DNA of 16,495 nt, from the NCBI GenBank assembly GCA_902773155.1, contig CACYDK010000143.1, positions 1 through 16,495 of the forward strand, read 5' to 3'. The DNA comes from an uncultured Ruminococcus sp. (GTDB taxonomy: Bacteria > Bacillota > Clostridia > Oscillospirales > Acutalibacteraceae). The notes under the pieces are model-generated. The model had not been told where the DNA came from. It searched no databases and saw nothing but the letters and a program-made list of their open reading frames with translations. Below are positions 4,172-15,996 of this stretch, piece after piece (position 1 is the first letter of the stretch; each line of letters opens with the position of its first letter). Position numbers and translations under genes: made by a program.

Positions 4172-4933
4172 TTATTTGCTGTAGTGCTTGCGGATTATTA
4201 CCACGATCACAATTACCAAAACCACAACCGCGGCGGCGCATATCCAGAGGATCGTAGCCGTGTTGTCGGAGCCCTTCGAGACCTCTGTCGGACTCGGAAC
4301 ATCGGGGGTAAAGGTCCCCTCTACCTTGTAGTGACCTTTTCCGGTGCCGTTTTTCTCGCCCTTTCCGTCGGCGTAGTTTACAAACGAGCCCTGATACTCG
4401 TTCATATTCTCCGGGTCGGTGTTGAGCTTAGGCGCGGCCTTGTCGACCACGGTTTTGCCGTTGACGTCGATAGAATTGCTGAACGTAAAGCTCTTGAGAT
4501 AGGTAATATCGGGGCCGTAGAGCTCGGTAACGAAATATGTGATGTCGGTGTTGCCCGCTTTCTTTACCTTAAAATCCACGGTCACAAGGGGCTTGGTTTT
4601 CTTAAAGCTTACAAAGTCCGTGGCCGTCGTCCAGTTAAAGGGGATAATGTTCTCGAGCTTGGCGTTCGATACGGCTCCCTTGATATTCGGAAAGCTCAGC
4701 GATTTTTCGTCGAGCTCAAGATACTCGCTGTCGTAGAAAAGCTGCATCTGAATTCCGCTTAGCTCCTCGGTGCAGTCACCTAGATAGAGAGTGTAGGTGA
4801 TCTTGTCGCCCTTTTTTGCCTTGGCGTCGTCGTTGATAACGAGCCCCGAGGCCGCGAAGGCCGACGAACACGAGAGCACGAGGATGAGCGCGACAACGCT
4901 CAGGCTCAAAGCCGTTTTAAAAAATCTTTTCAT
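4172..4933 (-). CDS. Membrane-anchored cohesin-like domain protein
   Basis: A 253-residue exported protein. Residues 1-27 are a signal peptide (MKRFFKTALSLS..., cleavage after SSAFA). Residues ~30-165 resemble a cohesin / carbohydrate-binding beta-sandwich: GDKITYTLYLGD, then SGIQMQLFYDSEYLELDE, then a late strand VTVDFKVKKAGNTDITYFV, the usual order of cohesin strands. A Gly/Lys/Pro-rich linker (~190-222) leads to a single membrane helix (~226-247, ILWICAAAVVVLVIVIVVII) and a short basic cytoplasmic tail, RKHYSK. There is no LPXTG motif. The start is ATG 4933 because GGAG lies 8 nt upstream; a TTG two codons earlier is too close to it. The gene has its own promoter and terminator. Known cohesins dock dockerin-bearing enzymes, and a dockerin pullulanase is encoded 8 kb away. 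Pairing is inference; the domain could also be a cohesin-fold adhesin. Confidence 0.68.
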   Translation of the reverse strand: MKRFFKTALSLSVVALILVLSCSSAFAASGLVINDDAKAKKGDKITYTLYLGDCTEELSGIQMQLFYDSEYLELDEKSLSFPNIKGAVSNAKLENIIPFNWTTATDFVSFKKTKPLVTVDFKVKKAGNTDITYFVTELYGPDITYLKSFTFSNSIDVNGKTVVDKAAPKLNTDPENMNEYQGSFVNYADGKGEKNGTGKGHYKVEGTFTPDVPSPTEVSKGSDNTATILWICAAAVVVLVIVIVVIIRKHYSK

Positions 4934-4965
4934 ATACAAAACTCCAGTTTCATTAGATTATTCTA

Positions 4966-4994
4966 ATTATACATTACGATGACGATTATTGCAA
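4966..4994 (-). promoter_or_regulatory. Sigma-A promoter of the cohesin-like gene
   Basis: On the minus strand TTGCAA (4994-4989) and a perfect TATAAT (4971-4966) are 17 bp apart. The predicted leader to ATG 4933 is about 25 nt and contains the GGAG ribosome site. Confidence 0.7.
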
Positions 4995-5040
4995 CAGCCA
5001 ATGCTGTTATAATGATACTTGTCGTAATTTCCTGCAAAAT

Positions 5041-5073
5041 AAAAACGTCGGCTGCCTTGTAAAAAGACAGCCG
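5041..5073 (-). terminator. Rho-independent terminator of the 60-aa membrane protein gene
   Basis: An 8-bp stem with one G-T pair (CGGCTGCC at 5049-5056 with GACAGCCG at 5066-5073) is followed on the minus strand by a three-base spacer and TTTTTATTTT. It begins 9 bp after the stop at 5082. Confidence 0.85.
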
Positions 5074-5081
5074 CTTCTTCC

Positions 5082-5264
5082 TCAGTCGTGTTTATCGTGA
5101 GCGAGATAAATCGGTATGCACGCCGCTGCCGCAAAGATAAGCAGCATAACCTCGGCGACCGTCCCGTCTACCCCTCCGCCCAAAAGGGCGAAAATGACAA
5201 ACATAACCGCAATAAGACAGCCCGCGAGTAAGAGGCTGACTGCCTTAATGTGTTTTTGCAACAT
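5082..5264 (-). CDS. Small hypothetical membrane protein, 60 aa
   Basis: The product has two predicted membrane helices: residues ~8-28 (VSLLLAGCLIAVMFVIFALL) and ~36-54 (VAEVMLLIFAAAACIPIYL). A GGGVDG turn joins them, and the C-terminus is short and charged (AHDKHD). I do not recognise a family. The gene is credible despite its size: ATG 5264 has GGAGG seven nt upstream, a near-consensus sigma-A promoter lies at 5309-5337, and a terminator directly follows. It is a self-contained single-gene unit between galE and the cohesin-like gene, all on the minus strand. The hairpin-like topology with both ends probably on the same side of the membrane is predicted from hydrophobicity only. Confidence 0.75.
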   Translation of the reverse strand: MLQKHIKAVSLLLAGCLIAVMFVIFALLGGGVDGTVAEVMLLIFAAAACIPIYLAHDKHD

Positions 5265-5284
5265 AGGCTTCCTCCGTTTTCACA

Positions 5285-5306
5285 CACATCATCCAAATGG
5301 TGATGT
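5285..5306. promoter_or_regulatory. Imperfect dyad at the transcription start of the 60-aa gene
   Basis: ACATCA-t-CCA and TGG-TGATGT form a 9-bp dyad with one bulged base around an AA centre. It lies just downstream of the -10 box, so it could be an operator or a 5' stem in the mRNA. Confidence 0.35.
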
Positions 5307-5308
5307 AA

Positions 5309-5337
5309 ATTATAATTCGTAAATGGAAAAAAGTCAA
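5309..5337 (-). promoter_or_regulatory. Near-consensus sigma-A promoter of the 60-aa membrane protein gene
   Basis: On the minus strand TTGACT (5337-5332) and TATAAT (5314-5309) are exactly 17 bp apart, 11 of 12 bases matching consensus. This is the best promoter match in the window. The A/T tracts at 5341-5360 upstream could act as an UP element. Confidence 0.8.
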
Positions 5338-5446
5338 GTGTTTTTTCAAAAAATTTTTTCGGAATTACAACTTTGTAAAAACGGAAGGATTTTTTCTTAA
5401 AAGAATTAAAAATTTGTCAATATTTTACTACGGTAAAGCGCGTTTT

Positions 5447-6463
5447 TCAGTCCGGATCGTAACCGTTTTTGTTGTGGCTCTGCCAGTTCCAGCTGTCGCG
5501 GCACATATCCTCGAGGGTCTTTTCGGCCTTCCAGCCGAGTATTTTTTCGGCCTTGCTTGGATCGGCGTAGCACTCGGCGATATCTCCGGGGCGCCGCGGC
5601 TTTATGTCGTAGGGTATCTCAAGGTCGTTGACGCGCATAAAGGCGTTCACGATATCGAGCACGCTGTAGCCGGTGCCGGTGCCGATATTAAAGACCTCCG
5701 TTCCCTTGTGCGAGGCGGCGTAGTCCAGAGCCTTTACGTGAGCCTTTGCGAGATCGACTACGTGGATATAATCGCGCACGCCGGTACCGTCCGGAGTGGG
5801 ATAATCGTTGCCGAAAACGCCGAGACGGCTGAGCTTTCCGGCGGCGACCTGGGTGATATACGGCATCAGGTTATTTGGAATGCCGTTCGGGTTTTCGCCG
5901 ATACGTCCGCTCTCGTGAGCTCCTATGGGGTTAAAATACCTGAGCAGTACAACGGACAAACCTGCGTCGGCCGAGGCGGCGTCGGTGAGGATCTGCTCGT
6001 TCATAAGCTTTGTCCAGCCGTAAGGATTGGTACAGCCGGTGGGCATTCCCTCGACAAGCGGAACGCGCTCGGGCACGCCGTAAACCGTAGCGGACGAGCT
6101 GAACACGAAATTCGCGACGCCGTGCTTTTTCATCGCCTCAAGAAGCGTAAGGGTGGAGTCGATATTGTTGCGGTAATATCTGAGCGGAATCGCGCAGCTT
6201 TCTCCCACCGCCTTTAAGCCGGCAAAGTGGATGACCGCGTCAAAGTCGTTTTCGGAGAACATCCGCTCGACCGCTTCGCTGTCGCAGACGTCGAGCTCGT
6301 ATGATTTTACGTTCACGCCGGTGATCTCCTCCACACGGCGTATAGCCTCGGGACAGCTGTTGTCAAAATTATCGGCGATCACCGGCGTATGACCTGCAAG
6401 GATCAGCTCAACGCAGGTGTGAGAGCCTATGTAACCGGCTCCGCCTGTAAGCAGTACTTTCAT
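5447..6463 (-). CDS. galE: UDP-glucose 4-epimerase
   Basis: A full-length (338 aa) short-chain dehydrogenase-type epimerase that interconverts UDP-glucose and UDP-galactose with bound NAD+, in the Leloir pathway and in supply of galactose for surface glycans. The Rossmann motif GGAGYIG is at 7-13. DNFDNS is at 31-36. The catalytic SSSATVYG is at 122-129, with Ser124 corresponding to the known catalytic Ser. The YxxxK pair is Tyr148 and Lys152. GVRDYIHVVDLAKAH and the C-terminal RPGDIAECYADPSKA are hallmark GalE stretches, which separate it from other sugar epimerases. It is the second gene of an operon: only 5 bp separate it from the cyclophilin stop, and its AAGG ribosome site lies inside that gene's end. 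No strong terminator follows. Confidence 0.96.
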   Translation of the reverse strand: MKVLLTGGAGYIGSHTCVELILAGHTPVIADNFDNSCPEAIRRVEEITGVNVKSYELDVCDSEAVERMFSENDFDAVIHFAGLKAVGESCAIPLRYYRNNIDSTLTLLEAMKKHGVANFVFSSSATVYGVPERVPLVEGMPTGCTNPYGWTKLMNEQILTDAASADAGLSVVLLRYFNPIGAHESGRIGENPNGIPNNLMPYITQVAAGKLSRLGVFGNDYPTPDGTGVRDYIHVVDLAKAHVKALDYAASHKGTEVFNIGTGTGYSVLDIVNAFMRVNDLEIPYDIKPRRPGDIAECYADPSKAEKILGWKAEKTLEDMCRDSWNWQSHNKNGYDPD

Positions 6464-6468
6464 ATTAT

Positions 6469-6987
6469 TTACACCTTCTCGGGCTCGGGATAGTCGACTC
6501 CGAAGGTGTCGACCTCGACCTTGCTCATAACCTGACTGTCAAGGGGCTTGTCGGAAAAGTCGGTGTCGCACTCGGCGATCTCGTTCACAACGTCCATCCC
6601 CTCTATAACCTTTCCAAAGGCGGCGTACTGGCCGTCGAGGTGAGGAGCGCTCTTGTGCATAATAAAGAACTGAGAACCGGCGCTGTCGGGCATCATCGAG
6701 CGAGCCATCGAGAGCACTCCCTCGGTGTGCTTTAAGGTGTTTATAAACCCGTTCTGCACAAATTCGCCCTTGATATGATATCCGGGACCGCCCATACCGG
6801 TGCCTTCGGGACAGCCGCCCTGGATCATAAAGCCAAAGATAACCCTGTGAAAGGTCAGGCCGTCGTAAAAGCCCTTTTTGATAAGGCTTATAAAGTTGTT
6901 GACAGTGTTGGGAGCGATCTCGGGGTAAAGCTCCGCCTTGATTATTTTATCGCCGTTTACGGTAAAAGTTACAATTGGATTACTCAT
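6469..6987 (-). CDS. Cyclophilin-type peptidyl-prolyl cis-trans isomerase
   Basis: A 172-residue single-domain cyclophilin without signal peptide, so cytoplasmic. It catalyses cis-trans isomerisation of X-Pro bonds during folding. The active-site stretches are intact: FHRVI (46-50, catalytic Arg48), FMIQGG (53-58), MAR (94-96), GSQFFI (104-109) and [11 protein letters not shown] (118-127). His117 stands where human CypA has the cyclosporin-contacting Trp121, as in many bacterial forms. Two in-frame ATGs exist, at 6996 and 6987. The AAAGG site leaves only 2 nt before the first, so I chose 6987, giving the usual MSNPIVTF start. It is the first gene of an operon with galE, an ordinary housekeeping pairing with no obvious functional link. 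Confidence 0.94.
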
Positions 6988-7022
6988 ATTTATCATAGCC
7001 TTTCTGCCCGCCGTGATTCTGT

Positions 7023-7050
7023 CCGGCCGCCGGGCGGGCCCGGTCGGCGG
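7023..7050 (-). promoter_or_regulatory. Very GC-rich hairpin in the leader of the cyclophilin-galE operon
   Basis: CCGGGC/GCCCGG (7030-7035/7038-7043) is a perfect 6-bp stem on a 2-nt loop. An alternative outer pairing joins CCGCC (7027-7031) to GGCGG (7046-7050). The stretch is nearly all G and C, unlike the AT-rich DNA around it. It falls within the predicted ~85-nt leader. No known riboswitch consensus is recognised. Confidence 0.45.
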
Positions 7051-7079
7051 AGACGGCGTTCTGCCGCTGTATCAGTGAT

Positions 7080-7108
7080 ATTTTATAATATTTTATAGAA
7101 GAAATCAA
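7080..7108 (-). promoter_or_regulatory. Promoter of the cyclophilin-galE operon
   Basis: On the minus strand TTGATT (7108-7103) and TAAAAT (7085-7080) are 17 bp apart. Its -35 box lies back to back with that of the divergent regulator gene, separated by one base. Confidence 0.55.
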
Positions 7109-7109
7109 G

Positions 7110-7138
7110 TTGTATTTTACCGAAAAGTATGGTATATT
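7110..7138 (+). promoter_or_regulatory. Promoter of the DtxR/MntR-family gene
   Basis: TTGTAT (7110-7115) and TATATT (7133-7138) are 17 bp apart, and TGG directly before the -10 makes it an extended -10. Predicted start about 7145, leaving a short leader with AAGGAGG at 7154-7160. Confidence 0.65.
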
Positions 7139-7168
7139 ATTTCTATCACTTTTAAGGAGGCCGATGAA

Positions 7169-7543
7169 GTGACGATTAAGCAATCCGCCGAGGATTATCT
7201 CGAGGCGATACTTGTTGTGGGAACGACCAAGGAGCACGTTCGCTCCATAGATATTGTAAAGAAACTGAACCTGTCGAAGCCGAGCGTGAGCGTAGCTATG
7301 AAAAAGCTCCGTCAAAACGGCTACATAAATATGGATTCCGAGGGCTTTATTACCCTGACGGACACCGGGCGCGAGATAGCCGAAAAAATCTATGACCGCC
7401 ACAAATTCATCTCAAAATGGCTCGAGGAGATGGGAGTTTCAAAGGAAGTCGCGCTTGCCGACGCATGCCGGATCGAGCACGTGCTCTCCGACGAGACCTT
7501 CAACGCTATCAAGTCGAACTATCAGGTGACAGATAAAGAGTAA
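7169..7543 (+). CDS. DtxR/MntR-family metal-dependent transcriptional regulator
   Basis: A 124-residue metalloregulator with an N-terminal winged helix (residues ~8-65; recognition helix around KPSVSVAMKKLRQNGY) and a dimerisation / metal-binding helical part (~67-120). It lacks the C-terminal SH3-like domain of DtxR, as MntR does. Candidate metal ligands by alignment from memory are Asp9, Glu12, His78, Cys100, Glu103 and His104. The DACRIEHVLSDE stretch matches the DtxR/IdeR primary site with Cys, while Asp9 is MntR-like. The start is GTG 7169: AAGGAGG lies 8 nt upstream, and the nearer ATG at 7164 runs into TGA after two codons. It probably represses metal uptake genes when Fe or Mn is plentiful. 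It is divergent from the cyclophilin operon, and no transporter is adjacent. Confidence 0.88.
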   Translation: MTIKQSAEDYLEAILVVGTTKEHVRSIDIVKKLNLSKPSVSVAMKKLRQNGYINMDSEGFITLTDTGREIAEKIYDRHKFISKWLEEMGVSKEVALADACRIEHVLSDETFNAIKSNYQVTDKE

Positions 7544-7583
7544 AAGGTCGATCCTTACCCATATTAACTCTCAGCTATCAACA

Positions 7584-7648
7584 TTCGGGAGATTTTTGTA
7601 TCAATTGCACAAAATGTATTTGCGATCTTTGTTGACATTGCTCCCGAA
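7584..7648. promoter_or_regulatory. 8-bp inverted repeat around the -35 of the beta-helix gene
   Basis: TTCGGGAG (7584-7591) and its exact reverse complement CTCCCGAA (7641-7648) are 49 bp apart. The right arm lies in the promoter spacer between -35 and -10. It could be a pair of operator half-sites or chance. Confidence 0.35.
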
Positions 7649-7662
7649 AAATGTGATATAAT
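7632..7662 (+). promoter_or_regulatory. Promoter of the beta-helix protein gene
   Basis: A perfect TTGACA (7632-7637) and a perfect TATAAT (7657-7662) with TGA directly before it (extended -10). The spacer is 19 bp, two longer than optimal, which the extended -10 may offset. The predicted leader is about 65 nt. Confidence 0.7.
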
Positions 7663-7733
7663 ATTGTTGGAAGTATAACCACTGTTAACCGTACGGAGAA
7701 ACAGCTTTCAGATATTATAGAGAGGTGAGAGAT

Positions 7734-9188
7734 ATGAAAAAACTATTATCCGCTTTTATAGCTTTCGCTGTTTTACTTACCTCGGGCATTTCCTGCGCCT
7801 ACGCCGAAGGGGTTGATATTCCTACCGACGGCGACGCTCTTCAGCAGTTTTTAAACGGTCTTGACGACGATGATTATGACGGAAACGACGATGTCGACGA
7901 CGACAACGCGGAAGAAGAAGACGACGATACCGAGGAGGAAGGCGAGGACTATGAGGACAACGACAGCAGTTCCGTCTACGCGTCCTACAACGACGGCCGT
8001 CTGATCGGAACGGTTCAGGACGACGGCAGCATTCTCTTTGTTACTCAGGAGGACGCTCACGCCAACGCGAATGCCCTTAAGGATCTCCTCGACAGCGATG
8101 AGGAAAAAACAATCGTGCTCCCCAAGGAGCGCATCGAAATCGACCAGACCCTGGTTGTTTGCAGCAACACGACGATAATAGCCGAGGGCGCGACGATTTA
8201 CGAGACAGAGGACAAGGCGATTCTTCTGCACGAGTGCGACGATGTTGACTACAACTCCATAAACGACGTTACTATCCGCGGAGGCAAATGGCTTGTCGAC
8301 AAAATCGAAAAAAGGCAGAAGTACGTCAACACATCCATCCGCTTTATGCACGGCTCCAACATCACGATCGACGGAGTTACCGTGAACACAAATTACAACA
8401 GCCACGCGCTCGAGCTCATCGCGTGCGAGGACGTCGTCGTTAAAAACAGCAAATTCCTCGCGATCGGCAAAACCACAAAGAAATCCAACGAGGAAGCGGT
8501 TCAGATCGACATAGCCACCCCCGCAACCGCGCCTTACGCCGCAAAGTTCGGCGCCGAGTTCGTCAAGGGGCAGACCTGCCGCAATATCACGGTCAAAAAC
8601 TGCGAGATACGCGGCTCCAGAGGAATCAGCACCAACAAATGCGACGTTGACGAAAAAGGCAAGTACACAAATAAGTACCTCAACAAATTCCACGAGAACA
8701 TCACTATCGAAGGTTGTAAAATCAAAGGTATGACCTCCGAGGCTATGGCTCTTCACAACGCGCTCAACGTTACCGTTAGCAAGTGCGAGGTGAGTTCGAT
8801 GGACAAGAGATACGGCGAGACCTACTCGATCGGCATAAACATCGCGTCCTTCGGAAATCACAGCAAAAAGGGTCAGTCCAAAATCAAAGTTACAGGAAAC
8901 AAGGTAACAGCCGGACGCCAGGGGATCTATATCGGTTCCTACACCGACGACAAGAGATTCGGCTCCGCGATAATCAACAAAAACAATGTCACTACAAAAT
9001 TTAAGCACACTAAGGCTCAATTAAAGCGCAAGAAGCATCCCGATTTCTGCGCGATCTATGCCGCGGATACCGGTAAGGTCGAGATCAGAAGGAATACAAC
9101 AAAGACCAAGCAGGGCAAGAAGAACGCGATCTATACCAAGAACTGCGGAAAAGTTATCAAGAAAAACAACAAGGCAAAAAAAGGATAA
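7734..9188 (+). CDS. Secreted right-handed parallel beta-helix protein with acidic N-terminal segment
   Basis: A 484-residue exported protein. Residues 1-24 are a signal peptide (cleavage after CAYA). Residues ~44-78 are almost only Asp and Glu. From ~95 to 470 the sequence is built of irregular beta-helix rungs rich in patterns such as NITIDGVTV, NITVKNCEI, NITIEGCKI and NVTVSKCEV, typical of pectate-lyase / polygalacturonase-like solenoids. The last ~60 residues are Lys-rich, ending in KKNNKAKKG. I see no catalytic motif that fixes an enzyme activity, dockerin or sorting signal, so substrate and role are open: polysaccharide lyase or hydrolase, or adhesin. The ATG at 7734 is preferred over GTG 7725, because GAGGTGA (7722-7728) is its ribosome site. 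It is a single-gene unit with its own promoter and terminator. Confidence 0.82.
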   Translation: MKKLLSAFIAFAVLLTSGISCAYAEGVDIPTDGDALQQFLNGLDDDDYDGNDDVDDDNAEEEDDDTEEEGEDYEDNDSSSVYASYNDGRLIGTVQDDGSILFVTQEDAHANANALKDLLDSDEEKTIVLPKERIEIDQTLVVCSNTTIIAEGATIYETEDKAILLHECDDVDYNSINDVTIRGGKWLVDKIEKRQKYVNTSIRFMHGSNITIDGVTVNTNYNSHALELIACEDVVVKNSKFLAIGKTTKKSNEEAVQIDIATPATAPYAAKFGAEFVKGQTCRNITVKNCEIRGSRGISTNKCDVDEKGKYTNKYLNKFHENITIEGCKIKGMTSEAMALHNALNVTVSKCEVSSMDKRYGETYSIGINIASFGNHSKKGQSKIKVTGNKVTAGRQGIYIGSYTDDKRFGSAIINKNNVTTKFKHTKAQLKRKKHPDFCAIYAADTGKVEIRRNTTKTKQGKKNAIYTKNCGKVIKKNNKAKKG

Positions 9189-9221
9189 TCAAGACAACCG
9201 ATAATTGATAATTAACAGCTT

Positions 9222-9273
9222 CGGTCGGGCAGAAGGGCTCAGTATAAAAGAGCCTCATCTGCCCGACCGTTTT
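9222..9273 (+). terminator. Strong rho-independent terminator of the beta-helix gene
   Basis: A perfect 12-bp stem (9222-9233 with 9258-9269, CGGTCGGGCAGA/TCTGCCCGACCG) holds an inner GGCTC/GAGCC stem and is followed by TTTT at 9270-9273. Confidence 0.9.
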
Positions 9274-9283
9274 CTGTTGGCTT

Positions 9284-9341
9284 AAAAAGATCCGGCCTAC
9301 AGACAAAGCTTTTGCGCAGAGAGCCTGTCCGTAGGCCGGAT
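9284..9341 (-). terminator. Long hairpin terminator downstream of the anti-sigma candidate gene
   Basis: Arms 9290-9305 and 9326-9341 pair over 15 of 16 positions (ATCCGGCCTAC/GTAGGCCGGAT plus GACA/TGTC) around a 20-nt loop. On the minus strand TTTTT (9288-9284) follows the stem almost directly. It lies 80 nt past the stop at 9422. On the plus strand it would be a second hairpin after the beta-helix terminator. Confidence 0.75.
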
Positions 9342-9403
9342 TATCATATTTTAAACAACTATTATCGACCTTTAAACAACGTGTTTACAAGGAGGATGTT
9401 TAG

Positions 9404-9493
9404 TTGACAACAGCGCGACCCTTATTCCTTATCCTCCGCGTCGGGAGCTGTCTGCTCCTCTGTCGGCACGGGGTCGGTTTCGTCAGGCTCTGA
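9404..9493 (+). CDS. Possible 29-aa small ORF behind a perfect ribosome binding site (weak)
   Basis: AAGGAGG (9389-9395) is followed 8 nt later by a TTG codon that opens 29 codons to TGA at 9491-9493. The product would begin with TTARPLFLILRV and contain a short hydrophobic stretch. It overlaps the 3' end of the convergent anti-sigma candidate gene. No promoter is clear, though a direct repeat TTTAAACAAC occurs at 9350-9359 and 9371-9380. ATG at 9396 in another frame stops after three codons. This may be a leader remnant of a lost gene rather than a working gene. Confidence 0.15.
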   Translation: MTTARPLFLILRVGSCLLLCRHGVGFVRL

Positions 9494-10561
9494 GGGCGAT
9501 TCGGTTTCGTCGGCCTCCTCGTCCTCAGGGCTTTCGTCATCGTCGGATACCGTTTCGGTTTCCTCGGGGTCGGAATAGGGTATCGCGACTCCCTTTTGTA
9601 TCGCGGCGTCAATAAGCTCGAGCGCCTTGTCGGTTTCGGTTACGATCCCCCGCTCCTCGGCGGAGTCGAGAGCGATTATCGAATGATCCGAAATATAGTA
9701 GAGTCCGTAAGTCTTTACGGGCTTATCGTCCTCGGCAAAGGAGTAACCCTTGAGCTCCATAACTCCGGACGCGGTGGGGTTATCGCAGCGGAAGAAGAGC
9801 TCGCCGTCGGCGATCTCGCCGAGGCTTGCCAGAGCAAAGGAATCGCGCTCAAAAAACGCGCGGAAGGCTTCCTCGTCGGGGTCGCATTCGTTGATTTCAA
9901 TTTCGATATCGCTTTTTCTTACGAGCTCGGCAACTGCTTCTAAATCCATAAGCTCGCCGTCCGTATAGGCTTCGTCGAGCGTGTATACGCCTGCGTCGTT
10001 CACGGCGTAAAGTCCGAGTCCGTAGGGGGTGCGCTGAGTTTCACAGCTGAAGGCGTAGCCGCCGATAACGTACACGCAGTCGTAGGCGTAGTCGAGGTTG
10101 TTTCCGGCGTAGCAGATTTTGTAGCCGTCGACCTCGCCGAGATTTTCGAACGAGGTTACGGTAAAGTCGCTGTCCTCAAAGGCGTTTTCAAGGTATTCCC
10201 GCTTCTCGCGTGAGTTAAGGGCATTTACGCCGGAGCCGGAACCGTTGTCGCCGTCTTTAAGGTCGCTGTTATTTTTATCTGCGTTTTTATCGCCGGAGAT
10301 TACGGCCGCCTTGGTGACCTCTGTGGCCGTAACGGCGGGCTCCTTCGGGAAGAATACTCCTCCGGGATTTGCGAACACAACTGCCATCGCAAGTGAAAGA
10401 GCGCCTAAGGTCGCGGCTATCGCGATGAATTTCGTGCTTTTTATTCCTATTTTCTTTACCTTGCCGTCAGCCGGGGTCTGGTTTATGCACGCTTCTCTGA
10501 TTTTTTCAAGATCGGGGAGCTGTCTGTCTGCCACCAGCTTAAATAAATCTTTTTCTTTCAC
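9422..10561 (-). CDS. Putative membrane-bound anti-sigma factor with duplicated external domain
   Basis: A 379-residue single-pass membrane protein encoded directly after an ECF-like sigma gene. Residues 1-43 are a basic cytoplasmic part that could hold the sigma factor, 45-64 a membrane helix, and 65-120 a linker. Two tandem copies of a ~95-residue domain follow (about 122-217 and 231-323). They share the order DSDF/DSF, LGEVDG/LGEIADG, GYAFS/GYSFAED, YGLGLY/YGLYY, LDEA/LDSA and a closing helix. A ~50-residue Asp/Glu/Pro-rich tail ends the protein. The start is GTG 10561, overlapping the sigma stop as GTGA, so the two are translationally coupled; no other Met precedes the helix. Function as anti-sigma is inferred from position and topology. 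No zinc HxxxCxxC anti-sigma motif is present and I do not recognise the repeat. Confidence 0.68.
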   Translation of the reverse strand: MKEKDLFKLVADRQLPDLEKIREACINQTPADGKVKKIGIKSTKFIAIAATLGALSLAMAVVFANPGGVFFPKEPAVTATEVTKAAVISGDKNADKNNSDLKDGDNGSGSGVNALNSREKREYLENAFEDSDFTVTSFENLGEVDGYKICYAGNNLDYAYDCVYVIGGYAFSCETQRTPYGLGLYAVNDAGVYTLDEAYTDGELMDLEAVAELVRKSDIEIEINECDPDEEAFRAFFERDSFALASLGEIADGELFFRCDNPTASGVMELKGYSFAEDDKPVKTYGLYYISDHSIIALDSAEERGIVTETDKALELIDAAIQKGVAIPYSDPEETETVSDDDESPEDEEADETESPSEPDETDPVPTEEQTAPDAEDKE

Positions 10562-11118
10562 TTTACCTCACCCTTTCTCTCGTAAAATGAGCGTATTTCT
10601 TTGATAGTTCGGTACAGCTTGTTCTTGACGGAGGATTCGCTTATTTCCATAAGCGACGCGATTTCCGCGATACTCATATCGAGCGAGAACCTCAGGAAGA
10701 ATATCCTCCTGATATCCTGGGGCTTCTTTGAAACGAAGCGCTCGATCTCGTCTACGAGCTCATTTGTACAAAGCTGATCCTCGAGGGTTCTGTCCTCGAG
10801 CTCCTCGTCGAAAATGCTTTTGTCATCCTCGTTCACTATTACCGAGAGCGAAAGGTCTGATTTTGACTTTTCAAGTGCGGTATAGTGGCGATAGATCTTG
10901 TTCTTCGCAATATTAATGACAAACGCCTCATCGTTTTCGACGAAATCCGCGCCCTTGCTGAGCATAGTCCGGTAGAGCTCCATATAGGTCTCCTGGAGAA
11001 TATCGCTTATATCCTCCATATTGCCGCATTTAGCCGCAATATAGGATAAAACGTTCTTGTTTGTTGAGTCGTAGATTTCGTTGAAGCGAGACGTGATGGA
11101 ATTGTCGACAGATTTCAT
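10558..11118 (-). CDS. ECF-like RNA polymerase sigma factor
   Basis: A 186-residue sigma-70 family protein of the extracytoplasmic-function type. Region 2 is about residues 12-80 (core binding in NMEDISDILQETYMELY and DEAFVINIAKNKIYRHY). An acidic linker follows (~85-118). Region 4 is about 120-180 with a helix-turn-helix MSIAEIASLMEISESSVKNKLYRT that reads the -35 box. Regions 1 and 3 are absent, as expected. The chosen start is ATG 11118, with GAGGAG at 11129-11134. A GTG at 11136 in frame has no ribosome site, since that signal lies downstream of it. It is the first gene of an operon with the membrane protein at 9422. A TGAAAC/CGAC promoter-like pair upstream suggests self-regulation. The target genes are unknown. 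Confidence 0.88.
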   Translation of the reverse strand: MKSVDNSITSRFNEIYDSTNKNVLSYIAAKCGNMEDISDILQETYMELYRTMLSKGADFVENDEAFVINIAKNKIYRHYTALEKSKSDLSLSVIVNEDDKSIFDEELEDRTLEDQLCTNELVDEIERFVSKKPQDIRRIFFLRFSLDMSIAEIASLMEISESSVKNKLYRTIKEIRSFYERKGEVK

Positions 11119-11145
11119 CCTTATTTCGCTCCTCACTAAAGTAGT

Positions 11146-11170
11146 GTCGCAAAAACCCGAAAAAGTTTCA
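11146..11170 (-). promoter_or_regulatory. Candidate ECF-type autoregulatory promoter
   Basis: On the minus strand TGAAAC (11170-11165) and CGAC (11149-11146) are 15 bp apart. This resembles the sigma-W/X/M promoters of Bacillus (TGAAAC or TGTAAC, 16-17 bp, CGTA/CGTC/CGAC), one base short. It points at the sigma gene, with a predicted leader near 20 nt. It overlaps the hairpin at 11151-11177. Confidence 0.4.
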
Positions 11171-11177
11171 GGTTTTT
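11151..11177 (-). terminator. Bidirectional-looking hairpin between the glycosylase and sigma genes
   Basis: On the minus strand CCTGAAA and TTTCGGG pair (one G-T) on a CTT loop, preceded by AAAAA and followed by TTTTT, the shape of an intrinsic terminator. It would end the glycosylase transcript about 70 nt after its stop. The stem is short and AT-rich, so efficiency is uncertain. Confidence 0.5.
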
Positions 11178-11248
11178 CAAAATATTTTTATATTTATAAA
11201 AACTTACAGTTATTCGATGATACAAACTAATATTTTGTACAATTTAAC

Positions 11249-12082
11249 CTACCGATCGAACAACTCGGGGTGCATCCGGCTGTAATGGAAGATATACTGC
11301 TGCGCGATCCCGGCGTAGCGGCCGAACGAATCCGCGCTCATCCCGGGGAAAAGCCTATCGAGCGCGCGCCTCATCCAGACGTCGACCGGGAAGGCCTCGA
11401 TCCTGTGAAGCCCGAAAAGCAGAGTGCAGTCGGCTACCTTAACGCCGACGCCCTTGATCTTCATCAGCTCGGCACGCGCCTCGTCATAGCCGAGGGTTCT
11501 GCAGGCCTCAAGGTCGACCTCGCCCGAGCTCACGCGGCGCGCGGCGTCTATAATGTACTTGCCGCGAAATCCCGCGCGGATCGGCGCCAGGTCGTCCGGC
11601 TCGAGGGGCGCCAGCTTTTCGGCCTCGGGAAAGGCGAAGCTTCCGCCGATATCCTCGCCGAAGCTCTCGCACAGCCGCTTGACGATCCCCTTGATGCGCT
11701 TGATGTTGTTGTTCTGCGAGATTATAAAGGAGCACAGAGCCTCCCACGGCTCCTGTCTTAATATCCTTATCCCCGGCGCGTAGGCGGAGGCCTCGCGCAG
11801 AACGGGATGAAGAGCGCTTATCTGCTCTCTTACGGCGGAGTAGTCGAGGCTGAGATCGAGGTAATCGCTCCAAATATTGTCAAAATCCGCAGCGGTTGCG
11901 CCGTCGATGTACAAAACGCCGTCCTCAAGCCTCATAACAACCTCTTTGCCGAAGGCGACCCCGCGATAACCCGAGCCCTCCGCCTCCCAGCGGAAGCTCT
12001 GGCCGCAGTCGAGAGTCTCGGCAAGGTTCAGATCCGTGATATTCTCAATTTTCACTCCGTTTTCGGTGGAAATACAGTTCAT
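11249..12082 (-). CDS. 8-oxoguanine DNA glycosylase / AP lyase, OGG1 type
   Basis: A 277-residue base-excision repair enzyme that removes 8-oxoguanine opposite C and nicks the abasic site. The N-terminal OGG domain (~1-105) includes the conserved LDCGQSFRW at 24-32. The HhH-GPD domain follows (~110-270). SQNNNIKRIKG is at 122-132. The helix-hairpin-helix KIKGVGVKVADC is at 208-219, with Lys215 in the position of the Schiff-base lysine (human Lys249). PVDVW at 232-236 gives Asp234 as the general acid/base. The length suits the clostridial OGG1 group rather than MutY or AlkA, which lack that lysine. ATG 12082 follows GAGG six nt upstream. It is a single gene sharing a compact divergent promoter with the DUF6062 gene. 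Confidence 0.92.
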   Translation of the reverse strand: MNCISTENGVKIENITDLNLAETLDCGQSFRWEAEGSGYRGVAFGKEVVMRLEDGVLYIDGATAADFDNIWSDYLDLSLDYSAVREQISALHPVLREASAYAPGIRILRQEPWEALCSFIISQNNNIKRIKGIVKRLCESFGEDIGGSFAFPEAEKLAPLEPDDLAPIRAGFRGKYIIDAARRVSSGEVDLEACRTLGYDEARAELMKIKGVGVKVADCTLLFGLHRIEAFPVDVWMRRALDRLFPGMSADSFGRYAGIAQQYIFHYSRMHPELFDR

Positions 12083-12112
12083 TTTGCACCTCGTGTTTTT
12101 TTACCACAAAAC

Positions 12113-12145
12113 AGTATACCATATTTCGACAGAATATGATATACT
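12113..12145. promoter_or_regulatory. Symmetric divergent promoter pair (glycosylase and DUF6062 genes)
   Basis: The 33-bp segment is a near-perfect inverted repeat: AGTATA-c-CATAT (12113-12124) against ATATG-a-TATACT (12134-12145), 11 of 12 pairs around TTCGACAGA. Each arm is an extended -10 box, TGG-TATACT on the minus strand and TGA-TATACT on the plus strand, pointing outwards. Neither side has a good -35. The plus start would be near 12152 and the minus start near 12106. Confidence 0.6.
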
Positions 12146-12178
12146 AATATTGTACTATTTTTTCTCAGGAGGCGGATT

Positions 12179-12874
12179 ATGAAAGAAAACATATGCACAA
12201 TTCCGATAAACGACCTGTTCAAGCCCAAGAACGGCTGTCCGATTTGCCGTATGGAGGAAATGCTCGAGGAAACCTACGTCGATTTCGTGGTCGGCGACGC
12301 GATGATGGAGCCGAATATCCGTATCGAGACGAACCGCAAGGGCTTTTGCCACAGACATTTCTCAAAAATGTTCAAGGCAGGACAAAAGCTTCCTAACGCT
12401 CTCATCATGGAGTCGCACCTCCAGCAGATCATCGACGAGCTTTTGCCGAAAAAAGCCGGCTCCAAGCCCGACAAAAAAGCCCTCGACAGGATCGATGAGC
12501 TCAGCCGCACCTGCTACGTCTGCGACAGGATCGAAAACGACATCCACCACCTTCTCGCGACGGTTTTTGCCGAATACCAGAAGAGCGCTGAATTCCGCGA
12601 GCTTTACCGCGATCAGCCCTTCGTCTGTCTTAACCACTACTCGCTCATAATGCGCGACGCTTCCGGAAAGCGCGGGGTCGGCTCCAAGTATATGGCCGAC
12701 TTCCACGAGGCGACCTACGGCCTCACCAAAAACTACCTGCTGTCTCTAAAGGAGGACACCTCCTACTTCTGCTCGATGTTCGATTACCGCAACCGCGGGG
12801 GCGATTTCGGCCGGAGCAAGGACGTAATCGAGCGGAATATCGAATATCTGACAAAGGAAAAACCCGTCGAATGA
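12179..12874 (+). CDS. DUF6062-like protein with four Cys/His knuckles
   Basis: A 231-residue soluble protein that I match from memory to the DUF6062 family of Bacillota; the function is unknown. It carries paired metal-ligand-like motifs: CPIC at 20-23 with CHRH at 57-60, then CYVC at 112-115 with CLNH at 150-153. These suggest two similar halves, each binding one metal. The C-terminal SMFDYRNRGGDF is characteristic, and a sequence of this kind closes the family. There is no signal peptide or membrane segment. ATG 12179 has AGGAGG (12167-12172) six nt upstream. It is divergent from the DNA glycosylase gene with a shared promoter region. No clear terminator follows before the pullulanase promoter at 12922. 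Confidence 0.8.
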   Translation: MKENICTIPINDLFKPKNGCPICRMEEMLEETYVDFVVGDAMMEPNIRIETNRKGFCHRHFSKMFKAGQKLPNALIMESHLQQIIDELLPKKAGSKPDKKALDRIDELSRTCYVCDRIENDIHHLLATVFAEYQKSAEFRELYRDQPFVCLNHYSLIMRDASGKRGVGSKYMADFHEATYGLTKNYLLSLKEDTSYFCSMFDYRNRGGDFGRSKDVIERNIEYLTKEKPVE

Positions 12875-12921
12875 CAAAAAGGACGGGCTGTTCGGCCGCC
12901 TGAATTAGTCGGTATTACCTA

Positions 12922-12950
12922 TAGACAACCACGGCAAAAAGTGTTAAAAT
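12922..12950 (+). promoter_or_regulatory. Promoter of the pullulanase gene
   Basis: TAGACA (12922-12927) and TAAAAT (12945-12950) are 17 bp apart, with TGT directly before the -10 (extended -10). A short leader with AAGGAGG (12965-12971) leads to ATG 12979. No catabolite-repression (cre) box was recognised. Confidence 0.65.
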
Positions 12951-12978
12951 GTATCGTGAAAATTAAGGAGGTTTTGAA

Positions 12979-15900
12979 ATGAAAAAAATACCTAAGAAAA
13001 TCCTGTCCGTTCTGCTTTCGGGCGTGCTTGTAGCCTCGGCAGCCTGGACAGCCGGCGCCGCGCCGCTCGACAAGGAGCCCACAGCGGCGGATAACAGCTA
13101 TACAAGCGCCTGTCAGCAGCTGGACAACCAGTTCGGCTACGACGGCAATGACCTCGGCTTTACCTATACTCCGCAGAAAACCACCTTCAAGGTATGGTCT
13201 CCTAAGGCGACCTCGGTTACTCTCAATCTTTACAACGAGGGCAACGGCGGAAACAAGCTCAAGACAGTTAATATGACCAAGGGCGCAAAGGGCGTTTGGT
13301 CGGTGGACGTAAACGAGGACATCAAGAACAAGTTCTACACCTACACCGTCACGACCCCCAACGTTCTCGGACAAAACCAGAAAACAAACGAGACTCAGGA
13401 TATCTACTCCGTAGCTACCGGCGTCAACGGTAAGCGCTCTCAGGTCGTAGACCTCAAGAGCACAAACCCGAGCGGCTGGGAAAGCGACGCTCACGTGGTT
13501 CCCCAAAAGAGCACAGACTCCTACGTCTGGGAGGTTCACGTAAAGGACTTCTCTTGGGACACAAAGTCCGGAGTTTCCTCCAAGAACCGCGGCAAATACC
13601 TCGCCTTTACCGAGCAGAACACCACGCTCAGCAACAACGGCAAAAACCCCACCATGCTCAACTACTTAAAGAGCCTCGGAGTAACTACGGTACAGATCAC
13701 TCCCTTCTATGATTTCGGCTCCATCGACGAGGCAGGCTCGGCCGACCAGTTCAACTGGGGCTACGATCCCGTCAACTACAACGTTCCCGAGGGCTCCTAT
13801 TCCTCAAACCCCAACGACGGTAACGTTCGTATCAAGGAATGTAAGCAGATGATCCAGGCGCTCCACAACGCCGGCTTCTCGGTTGTAATGGACGTTGTTT
13901 ATAACCACATGTTCTCGGCAACGGACTCCAGCTTTGAGAAAACCGTTCCCAACTACTATTTCCGTATGATGGCCAACGGTAAGTATTCCGACGGCTCCGG
14001 CTGCGGAAACGAGACCGCCTCCGAGCACAAAATGTTCAGAAAATTCCTCATCGATTCCTGTATGTACTGGGTCAACGAGTATCATATCGACGGCTTCCGC
14101 TTCGACCTTATGGGAATCCACGACTGCGAGACGATGAATCTTCTCCGCGCAGAGATGGACAAGGTCGACCCGAGACTCACTATCTGGGGCGAGGGCTGGA
14201 CAGGCGGCTCCTGCAACTATCCTTCAAAAACCTGCACAGGCCAGACCTTCCACGAGGCCGACCGCTTCCAGTCGCCGAACTTAAACGAAAGAGTCGCCAT
14301 CTTTAACGACGGTATCCGCGACGCCGTAAAGGGCTCCGTCTTTGCTCTCGACGGCAAGGGCTTTATCCAGGGCAGCGCCTCCTCAGCCAAGGAGCTCAAG
14401 GAGGGTATGCTCGGAAACACCGTCGGCACTCACAACGCCGCCAACTATCAGTGGACTTCAAAGGCGCCGTCTCAGACGGTTTCCTACACCTCGTGTCACG
14501 ATAACCAGACTCTTTGGGACAGAATCGCCTGCTCACAGGGCGTAAAGAGCGGTTTCCGCAACCGCACCGACAAGTTTGCCGCTCAGAACCGTCTTGCCGG
14601 CGGAATTATGAATATGGCTCAGGGTATAACCTTTATGCTTGCCGGTGAGGAAATGGGACGCTCAAAGGACAACGACGAAAACAGCTACAAGTCGGCCGCT
14701 ACGACAAATATGATCGACTGGAGCTGGGTTCAGAGCAACGCCGATATCGTAAACTTCTATAAGGGCACCCGCCAGATCCGCGCCTGCTTCTCACCTCTGC
14801 GCGATAATACAACCAGCTCGAAAAACAACTACAACTGTACAACAGGCGACAGCTCCACAACCTACGCCGCCATCTGGAACAACAACAAGAGCGGCGAGTG
14901 GAAGAAGCTCGCGGTAATCGCGAACGGCTCCGGTAACCAGATCAATCACTCCTTCAACGACGGCACAAACTGGGTGATCCTCGCCAACGGAACCTCCGCC
15001 GGACTCAAAAAACTCGGCGAGACCAGCGGCAGCTTTACCGTTCCCGCCTACTCAATGGTAATTGCCGTTGATAAGCAGAGCTTCGAGTCCGTAACGCCCA
15101 CCCCGGTAAAGAACGCCGTAGTCGGCGGCACGGTCACTCCCACAGAGCCCCCCACAGAGCCTCCTACAAACGCTCCCACAAACGCTCCTACAGAAGCGCC
15201 TACAGACGCTCCCACAGACGCTCCGACAGACGCTCCTACAAACGCTCCTACTCAGGCTCCCACAGACGCGCCCACAGACACCGATACACAGGCGCCCACA
15301 AATGCTCCTACAAACGCTCCCACAGACGAGCCTCAGACAACAGAGGTTTACGGCGACGCTAACCACGACGGCGATATCACCGTAGCCGATGTGACCGCAA
15401 TCCAGAAGCACCTTGCCAGCCTCTCAACTCTCTCCGATATCGGCACTACCCTCGCCGACGTCGACAAAAACGGCAAGATCACTATCAAGGACGCTACATA
15501 TATCTCCAAATACCTCATCAAGATGAACGACAGCGCGAGCGTCGGCAAGCCCTACGGCAATGCTCCGGCCGCCGATCCGACCTCTCCTGCTCCGACAGAA
15601 GCTCCCGAGACAGCTCCCATAGCCGCCCCGACCGAGGCTCCCACAGCCGCTCCTGCGGAAACCCCGACAGAGGCGCCGACAGCCGCTCCGACCGAGACCC
15701 CGACGGACGCTCCCGCCGAGACGCCTACAGACGCTCAGCCGGAGCCCGTAAACGGAACCCTCGTATACTTCGCGAACAACCAGGGCTGGGGTACTCCTCA
15801 CATCTATCTCTGGAAGAACAACTCCGATCCTATCCAGCAGAACGCCGCTTGGCCGGGAGTAGCTATGGAGAAGGATGATTCCGGCAGATATTTCTGCGTG

Positions 15901-15996
15901 ATCCCCTCCGATTACGATATGATGATCTTCAACGACGGCGCCTCAAGCCAGACCGACGATATGTCCGTACCCTCCGAAAGCGGACAGGAGTTTTGA
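12979..15996 (+). CDS. Secreted type I pullulanase with type I dockerin and starch-binding module
   Basis: A 1005-residue exported GH13 debranching enzyme cleaving alpha-1,6 links in pullulan and branched starch. Domains: signal peptide 1-27/28; CBM48-like region ~40-150; GH13 barrel ~168-620; C-terminal beta domain to ~712; Pro-Thr linker 721-789; type I dockerin 790-851; second linker 866-923; CBM26-like starch-binding module 924-1005. Catalysis: DVVYNH 305-310, GFRFD with nucleophile Asp376, GEGW with acid/base Glu405, and HDN with Asp508. FNWGYDP (258-264) is the type I pullulanase signature with Phe for the usual Tyr. Dockerin loops: Asp793, Asn795, Asp797, Thr801, Asp804 and Asp827, Asp829, Asn831, Thr835, Asp838. 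The module's IFNDG and SQTDD stretches match CBM26. AAGGAGG precedes ATG 12979. The dockerin implies attachment to a cohesin scaffold, as in amylosomes. Confidence 0.93.
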   Translation: MKKIPKKILSVLLSGVLVASAAWTAGAAPLDKEPTAADNSYTSACQQLDNQFGYDGNDLGFTYTPQKTTFKVWSPKATSVTLNLYNEGNGGNKLKTVNMTKGAKGVWSVDVNEDIKNKFYTYTVTTPNVLGQNQKTNETQDIYSVATGVNGKRSQVVDLKSTNPSGWESDAHVVPQKSTDSYVWEVHVKDFSWDTKSGVSSKNRGKYLAFTEQNTTLSNNGKNPTMLNYLKSLGVTTVQITPFYDFGSIDEAGSADQFNWGYDPVNYNVPEGSYSSNPNDGNVRIKECKQMIQALHNAGFSVVMDVVYNHMFSATDSSFEKTVPNYYFRMMANGKYSDGSGCGNETASEHKMFRKFLIDSCMYWVNEYHIDGFRFDLMGIHDCETMNLLRAEMDKVDPRLTIWGEGWTGGSCNYPSKTCTGQTFHEADRFQSPNLNERVAIFNDGIRDAVKGSVFALDGKGFIQGSASSAKELKEGMLGNTVGTHNAANYQWTSKAPSQTVSYTSCHDNQTLWDRIACSQGVKSGFRNRTDKFAAQNRLAGGIMNMAQGITFMLAGEEMGRSKDNDENSYKSAATTNMIDWSWVQSNADIVNFYKGTRQIRACFSPLRDNTTSSKNNYNCTTGDSSTTYAAIWNNNKSGEWKKLAVIANGSGNQINHSFNDGTNWVILANGTSAGLKKLGETSGSFTVPAYSMVIAVDKQSFESVTPTPVKNAVVGGTVTPTEPPTEPPTNAPTNAPTEAPTDAPTDAPTDAPTNAPTQAPTDAPTDTDTQAPTNAPTNAPTDEPQTTEVYGDANHDGDITVADVTAIQKHLASLSTLSDIGTTLADVDKNGKITIKDATYISKYLIKMNDSASVGKPYGNAPAADPTSPAPTEAPETAPIAAPTEAPTAAPAETPTEAPTAAPTETPTDAPAETPTDAQPEPVNGTLVYFANNQGWGTPHIYLWKNNSDPIQQNAAWPGVAMEKDDSGRYFCVIPSDYDMMIFNDGASSQTDDMSVPSESGQEF
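15139..15345 (+). repeat. Degenerate 12-bp tandem repeat coding for the first Pro-Thr linker
   Basis: About 17 imperfect copies of a 12-base unit of the type CCTACAGACGCT encode P-T-x-A/P. The x position alternates between Asp, Asn, Glu and Gln, giving an extended, probably flexible spacer between the catalytic part and the dockerin. Such repeats can change copy number by slippage. Confidence 0.85.
15355..15537 (+). other. Type I dockerin module within the pullulanase
   Basis: Two duplicated EF-hand-like calcium loops with their helices, beginning GDANHDGDITVADV and ADVDKNGKITIKDA. Every calcium-ligand position (1, 3, 5, 9, 12) is filled in both. Positions 10-11, which help decide cohesin specificity in other systems, are Val-Ala in the first copy and Ile-Lys in the second, so the two halves differ. 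Confidence 0.92.
15574..15747 (+). repeat. Second Pro-Thr-Ala repeat linker of the pullulanase
   Basis: Units of APTEAPT, ETPTEAPT and ETPTDAPA type separate the dockerin from the C-terminal starch-binding module. It is richer in Ala than the first linker and has a looser repeat. Confidence 0.75.

Follow-up and report, generated by a model that had tools for sequence, protein, structure and literature searches.

The window analysed here is a stretch of 16,495 nucleotides that forms the complete contig C143 of its home genome, an assembly of 1.54 Mb in 227 contigs with a completeness of 94.4%. Its two key genes are one for a membrane-anchored single-cohesin protein of 253 residues, here called cohTM (4172..4933, reverse strand), and one for a dockerin-bearing type I pullulanase of 1005 residues (12979..15996, forward strand). 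The cohTM gene begins with an ATG at position 4933 that is preceded by GGAG. On its 5' side are a galE-like gene (5447..6463) and a ppiB-like gene (6469..6996), both on the reverse strand, both named by inspection and both ordered as in R. bromii, with 78% and 84% identity, respectively, to the copies at the related locus L078. A promoter-like site on the 5' side of cohTM (4994-4966) and terminator-like hairpins that flank it (5073-5049 and 4155-4139), all of them consensus matches only, fit a separate cohTM transcript. The gap between galE and cohTM (4934-5446) has an attenuator-like layout, with a promoter-like site, a terminator-like hairpin and a second promoter-like site. Elsewhere in the window are a gene for an exported right-handed beta-helix protein (7725-9188, forward strand; PF13229, 31.8 bits) and, at 9422-11136 on the reverse strand, an ECF-type sigma factor gene overlapping that of a protein without a Pfam match, possibly an anti-sigma factor or sensor. 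Sequence related to the latter region is present in L047:1891-5349 (28% identity).

All features of the cohTM protein lie on the reverse strand; model residue numbers begin at residue 2, the protein number being the model number plus one. By inspection, the protein starts with a signal peptide of the AFA-A type (4853..4933), which is followed by a cohesin module (4427..4846, model residues 29-168). A PF00963 scan of full-length cohTM returned no rows, a result that by itself would have refuted the claim of a cohesin, but scores of 28.0 and 27.1 bits, against a cut-off of 24.1, came from the isolated domain and from a search of the genome. The module has the cohesin jelly-roll fold, and the closest solved structures are both R. 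bromii Sca5 cohesins (7urp and 7uvg). Near its C-terminus, hydropathy and the structure model show a membrane helix (4181..4261, model residues 224-250) that is followed by a short basic tail. We found 116 homologues of cohTM at E<=0.01, those nearest to the window protein, and chose 53 from among them, referred to below as close homologues. A hydrophobic helix follows the juxtamembrane motif (see below) in all 53, with tails beyond it of up to 48 residues; PF00963 missed 35 of the 53 at full length. The initial annotation had described an exported cohesin-like protein with a C-terminal membrane helix, and profile, fold and helix all agree that cohTM is a true cohesin of this kind. With a signal peptide (by inspection), one cohesin, a C-terminal helix and no dockerin, it has the composition of a TM-anchored single-cohesin scaffoldin. 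We also considered a lipoprotein anchor and rejected it as unlikely, because just 9 of the 53 members retain the signal-peptide cysteine.

Between the cohesin and the helix lies a juxtamembrane motif, YQGxFxNYxDGKGExNG (4346..4396, model residues 179-195), with pLDDT block means of 93-95. The motif is the best conserved 17-residue window in the close homologues, with a mean majority fraction of 0.80 versus 0.59 for the cohesin, and residues Q180, G181, N185, Y186, D188 and G191 are invariant among them. The linker that separates the motif from the helix is variable, with a spacing of 31-83 residues (median 40) in the close homologues, and contains a second conserved element, (V/T/I)(D/E)V(T/S)(K/R/Q) (4274..4291, residues 214-219), identified from column counts. 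The C-terminal part of cohTM might conceivably act as a cryptic sorting signal that places the protein on the wall, like Sca2 and Sca5, since a helix with a basic tail looks alike in both cases, the stretch ahead of the helix carries a conserved V-(T/S)-(K/R/Q) element and the genome has a sortase (on contig C207, 54.3 bits). We regard this as highly improbable. LPxTG-like signals were found in none of the 53 close homologues and V.TG in two, the Gram-positive anchor profile PF00746 gave no row for cohTM and none at E<=0.01 among the 53, and the tails of up to 48 residues also argue against a sorting signal. The same profile is passed by an SBP360-like protein of the same genome (23.7 bits, cut-off 20). 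The absence of a sortase motif, as originally claimed, thus holds to the extent that cohTM has no detectable sortase signal.

Most of the genus genomes sampled encode a membrane-anchored cohesin. A family profile matches at E<=1e-20 in 94 of 120 genus genomes (54 of 63 of high quality), with exactly one match in 88 of the 94; such a match is absent from the other 26 (9 of 63), and cohTM is not universal. Judged from match span, the match covers the helix in 66 of the 94, in one case as two pieces. The other 28 all have a cohesin ORF, with a terminal membrane helix in 26 and interruption by N runs in 2. The hit positions in one genus genome agree with those of R. bromii ATCC 27255, and the sampled genus is presumably that of R. 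bromii. All 120 genus genomes encode at least 8 dockerins. The family sample comprises 200 genomes. A match at E<=1e-10 occurs in 17 of them, in some cases through the cohesin part only, and all 17 belong to the 57 genomes in which 10 or more dockerins were counted (Fisher 7.6e-11, a test that ignores relatedness). The 8 family genomes that match over model positions 5 to 247 are likewise all among those 57 (3.0e-5, with the same proviso). A dockerin count of 30 in the family sample, or of 49 in the genus sample, is to be read as at least that number. cohTM therefore co-occurs with many dockerins, and at two of five further family loci (L150 and L151) a dockerin ORF is found, by inspection, a few genes from the cohesin gene.

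The juxtamembrane motif has a narrower distribution than the protein. It is present in only one of the 28 divergent genus members, and its absence from the other 27 marks it as a subgroup marker; we accordingly rejected it as a signature of the whole genus. The strict pattern also has no match at four of the five further family loci (L150-L153). Across the loci scanned, the pattern matches 37 ORFs; six of them lie outside L046-L086, and each of the six duplicates the window protein, the R. bromii protein or the G187 relative. In 27 of the 28 divergent genus members (L164-L191) the cohesin lacks the motif, and nearly all of these cohesins have a membrane helix. Several of these have long acidic tails past the helix, and they form a second subgroup of the family.

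We compared gene order in 41 named loci (L046-L086) from a scan of GTDB species genomes. Because the motif served as the seed of the scan, members without it escape detection and the loci carry no information on motif conservation; the flanks are at most 8 kb, and many end at contig ends. The locus of R. bromii ATCC 27255 runs through ppiB, galE, a Sca5-like scaffoldin, cohTM, a 399-residue protein and a 555-residue cohesin protein, where the names Sca5-like and Sca2-like, as used for this strain, are assigned from architecture. The Sca5-like scaffoldin has X25, two cohesins and a sortase-like NAVQTG; the 399-residue protein has a sortase-like end and no significant Pfam match, and the 555-residue protein also has a sortase-like end. 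A Sca5-like ORF, in some cases a contig-end fragment, is the nearest upstream ORF on the same strand in 20 of the 41 loci. A downstream ORF on the same strand is present in 37 (19 of the 399 type, 12 SBP360-like, 4 of the 555 type and 2 others) and missing from four. At least one of these Sca5-, 399-, SBP360- or 555-like neighbours occurs in 36 of the 41, a count in which R. bromii and L046, the reference sources for the neighbour types, match by construction. cohTM is syntenic with scaffoldin genes in many relatives. By gene order, it appears to be orthologous to the R. bromii protein encoded between Sca5 and the second cohesin protein, the one with a sortase-like end.

In the window itself the order is ppiB-galE-cohTM, with Sca5 missing, and synteny is broken directly after cohTM, either by rearrangement or by misassembly. 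The usual next gene is found on contig C157, where the SBP360 copy of the home genome has 66% identity. This CBM26-like anchored protein (C157:5780-6859, L163), whose relatives come after cohTM in 12 of the 41 named loci, has a CBM26 match below threshold (22.1 bits, cut-off 28.1).

The pullulanase is recognised by TIGR02104 with 642.9 bits (cut-off 504.5) and comprises CBM48 (13153..13383, a profile match), GH13, dockerin and CBM26 domains, all on the forward strand. Its dockerin (15349..15516) scores 40.0 and 45.1 bits with PF00404 (cut-off 22.9), and both calcium-binding loops are complete by inspection. The CBM26 starch-binding module (15763..15963) scores 61.4 bits. The complete two-loop dockerin and starch-binding module reported by the initial annotation are therefore both real, and its proposal of an amylosome also fits the genome as a whole.

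The home genome has the dockerin GH13 enzymes with CBM26, and the scaffoldin with a cohesin and a starch-binding module, that characterise an amylosome. A dockerin search gave 21 rows, of which 20, in 20 ORFs, are above the cut-off. Ten of these ORFs are related to alpha-glucans: seven, the window pullulanase included, contain GH13, an eighth is pullulanase-like but incomplete at its 5' end, and two have CBM26, in one case with no enzyme domain and in the other together with a metallophosphatase domain. CBM26 is above its cut-off in eight of the 20. Among the rest, leucine-rich repeats are found in four, there is one ORF each with GH25, GH53 and a papain-like protease, and in three the dockerin is the sole Pfam domain at E<=0.001. 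A wider cohesin profile marks eight places in the home genome, five of which were rows of that profile. The family profile gives independent support to C207:8 (E 1.9e-6), C207:7109 (8.5e-10) and C196 (3.1e-11). C45 matches the wider profile (1.1e-20) and is not itself one of its rows, the C52 cohesin has only a sub-threshold PF00963 score (17.3 bits), and the C47 and C110 matches are marginal. Only the window cohesin passes the PF00963 cut-off. The scaffoldin with a starch-binding module is the first C207 ORF, which is cut by the contig end and combines CBM26 (38.1 bits) with the cohesin matched at E 1.9e-6 (PF00963 19.8 bits, under the cut-off). An exported ORF at C110:6339-7445 (reverse strand, L038) joins a weakly cohesin-like domain to a dockerin at its C-terminus and may be a monovalent adaptor. 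By inspection, C196:4492-7204 (L028) holds a GH13-like exported ORF that has no dockerin, beside a cohesin protein with Big_2-like repeats.

The initial annotation further suggested, as a hypothesis, that cohTM could fix the pullulanase straight to the membrane, which we take as a proposal of a dedicated pair. Both genes are on one 16.5-kb contig, both domains are real, and a Sca5 cohesin of R. bromii accepts several dockerins according to the available text of PMC5814915. Such a pair is possible, but nothing specific supports it, and we consider it unlikely. The two genes are on opposite strands, with 8 kb and several genes between them, and form no operon. They were not seen side by side in the 41 named loci, where a pullulanase of the window's architecture was not seen within the flanks near cohTM. 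A pulA gene is the best match in the reference set at L080 and L084 only (ORFs of 117 and 671 residues, and of 704 residues, respectively), and two of these ORFs end in a dockerin by inspection. A regular expression flagged a further dockerin-like ORF at the edge of L079, a pattern that missed the L080 and L084 dockerins and so yields no count. Within the home genome, at least four other cohesin proteins and 20 dockerin ORFs compete, and the pullulanase dockerin could go to any of those cohesins. The best R. bromii match of the pullulanase, in a comparison that covered 15 of 21 dockerin loci in 3-kb pieces, is an Amy12-sized locus with 44% identity over residues 286-849; its frame has 1064 residues, against 1059-1060 for Amy12, and the two dockerins are just 27% identical. 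The Amy12 dockerin shows strong ELISA binding to a Sca5 cohesin in the available text of PMC5814915. On the likely reading set out below, the Amy12-like pullulanase is an amylosome enzyme whose partner is more likely another cohesin than cohTM.

Overall, we think it likely that the home genome codes for an R. bromii-type amylosome in which cohTM is a single-cohesin scaffoldin, held by its helix at the membrane and probably binding one dockerin protein. The C-terminal helix would hold the cohesin on the outside of the cytoplasmic membrane, and the cohesin would most likely capture one dockerin-bearing amylosome protein, whether an enzyme, a starch-binding protein or a scaffoldin, near the membrane. 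From cohesin 2 of Sca5 to its sortase-like motif there are roughly 170 residues, with the cohesin end estimated. The reach of cohTM is short by comparison, and its cohesin would therefore sit under or inside the wall, taking wall thickness from general knowledge. We infer dockerin binding, its calcium dependence, the choice of dockerin and the location under the wall. Several features count against this reading. With 31-83 residues between motif and helix, a bound 110-kDa enzyme might lie inside the wall, away from starch, and because the motif, not the cohesin, is best conserved within the close family, dockerin capture may not be the main function. The loss of synteny after cohTM in the window, the 26 of 120 genus genomes that gave no match and the failure of every other home-genome cohesin to pass PF00963 also weigh against it.

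The short reach may be better suited to retention or hand-over of exported dockerin proteins than to showing a 110-kDa enzyme to starch granules. In its strongest form, this idea makes cohTM, throughout the R. bromii genus, a loading station that catches exported dockerin proteins and passes them to the wall-anchored scaffoldins encoded next to it, with the motif, in the one large subgroup that has it, recruiting an export, folding or sorting factor. The invariance of the motif in the close homologues and the scaffold genes that adjoin cohTM are consistent with this proposal. If true, it would add a dedicated and so far unrecognised membrane step to amylosome assembly. We consider it distinctly unlikely: the divergent members that keep the cohesin (and, in 26 of 28, a visible helix) lack the motif in all but one case, and its strict pattern has no match in L150-L153, which argues that the motif is not needed for the common function, and we know of no precedent. 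It is also quite unlikely that cohTM keeps the fold of a cohesin but has lost dockerin binding and does something else at the membrane. Non-cellulosomal cohesins exist (2xdh, by its title), and both the many full-length members missed by PF00963 and the position of the best conserved window outside the cohesin would fit. On the other side, the fold is nearest to two Sca5 cohesins with dockerin binding reported in the available texts of PMC9112005 and PMC5814915, matches in the family sample occur only in dockerin-rich genomes, and scaffoldin genes often adjoin cohTM. Capture of a dockerin protein at the membrane remains our preferred reading.

R. bromii is described as a keystone species for the breakdown of resistant starch in the human gut (available texts of PMC5814915 and PMC9112005), and the assembly and cell attachment of its amylosome are still being worked out. 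cohTM is a concrete candidate amylosome component, carried by most sampled genomes of the genus and encoded beside a Sca5-like gene in R. bromii. As far as the available texts go, five scaffoldins are described (PMC5814915 and PMC9112005) with six known cohesin modules (PMC9112005). In ATCC 27255 we count eight cohesins in seven proteins, five of the eight being profile rows: Amy4, the Sca5-like pair, the 555-residue protein, a 712-residue frame with an N-terminal cohesin (Sca3-like), cohTM, and proteins of 298 and 335 residues. With cohTM, the number of cohesins known for the species would also rise from 6 to 8. The 298-residue protein (L088:1300-2196, forward strand; PF00963 32.4 bits) is a second single cohesin with a C-terminal TM helix, seen by inspection, and has no motif. 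The 335-residue single-cohesin protein (L160:1387-2394, reverse strand) has a lipobox-like N-terminus, VMSGC, and is perhaps lipid-anchored. Sca4, which appears only as a likely cell-free scaffoldin in the texts consulted, can be at most one of cohTM and the 298- and 335-residue proteins. In the literature searched, which left most subscription journals outside, we found no description of the cohTM locus, its genus-wide spread or the motif, and no mention of PDB code 7URP.

Membrane-anchored single cohesins are themselves already published, although PMC11557425 is the only publication among those searched in which the architecture was seen. Scaffoldin anchors include C-terminal TM helices, and two single-cohesin TM 'nonSLH-anchoring' scaffoldins are named in Lachnoclostridium sp. 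MSJ-17 (PMC11557425, available text). cohTM has the same architecture, and L060 is the cohTM locus of that strain; the available text of that account says nothing of a locus, a spread across the genus, a juxtamembrane motif or a tie to amylosomes. The R. flavefaciens ScaE cohesin (2zf9) is also among the closest known systems. At the level of the whole genome, the resemblance is to the R. bromii amylosome (Sca1-Sca5; Amy4, 9, 10, 12 and 16), with its dockerin GH13 enzymes carrying CBM26 and its cohesin scaffoldins, and the window and R. bromii have the gene order ppiB-galE-(Sca5)-cohTM in common. A further close system is Sca5, whose cohesins are nearest in fold among solved structures and whose counterpart adjoins the cohTM orthologue in ATCC 27255. 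Sca5 differs in its X25 starch-binding modules, its pair of cohesins, its long linker and its sortase signal; cohTM contains a single cohesin, lacks a CBM and carries a membrane helix.
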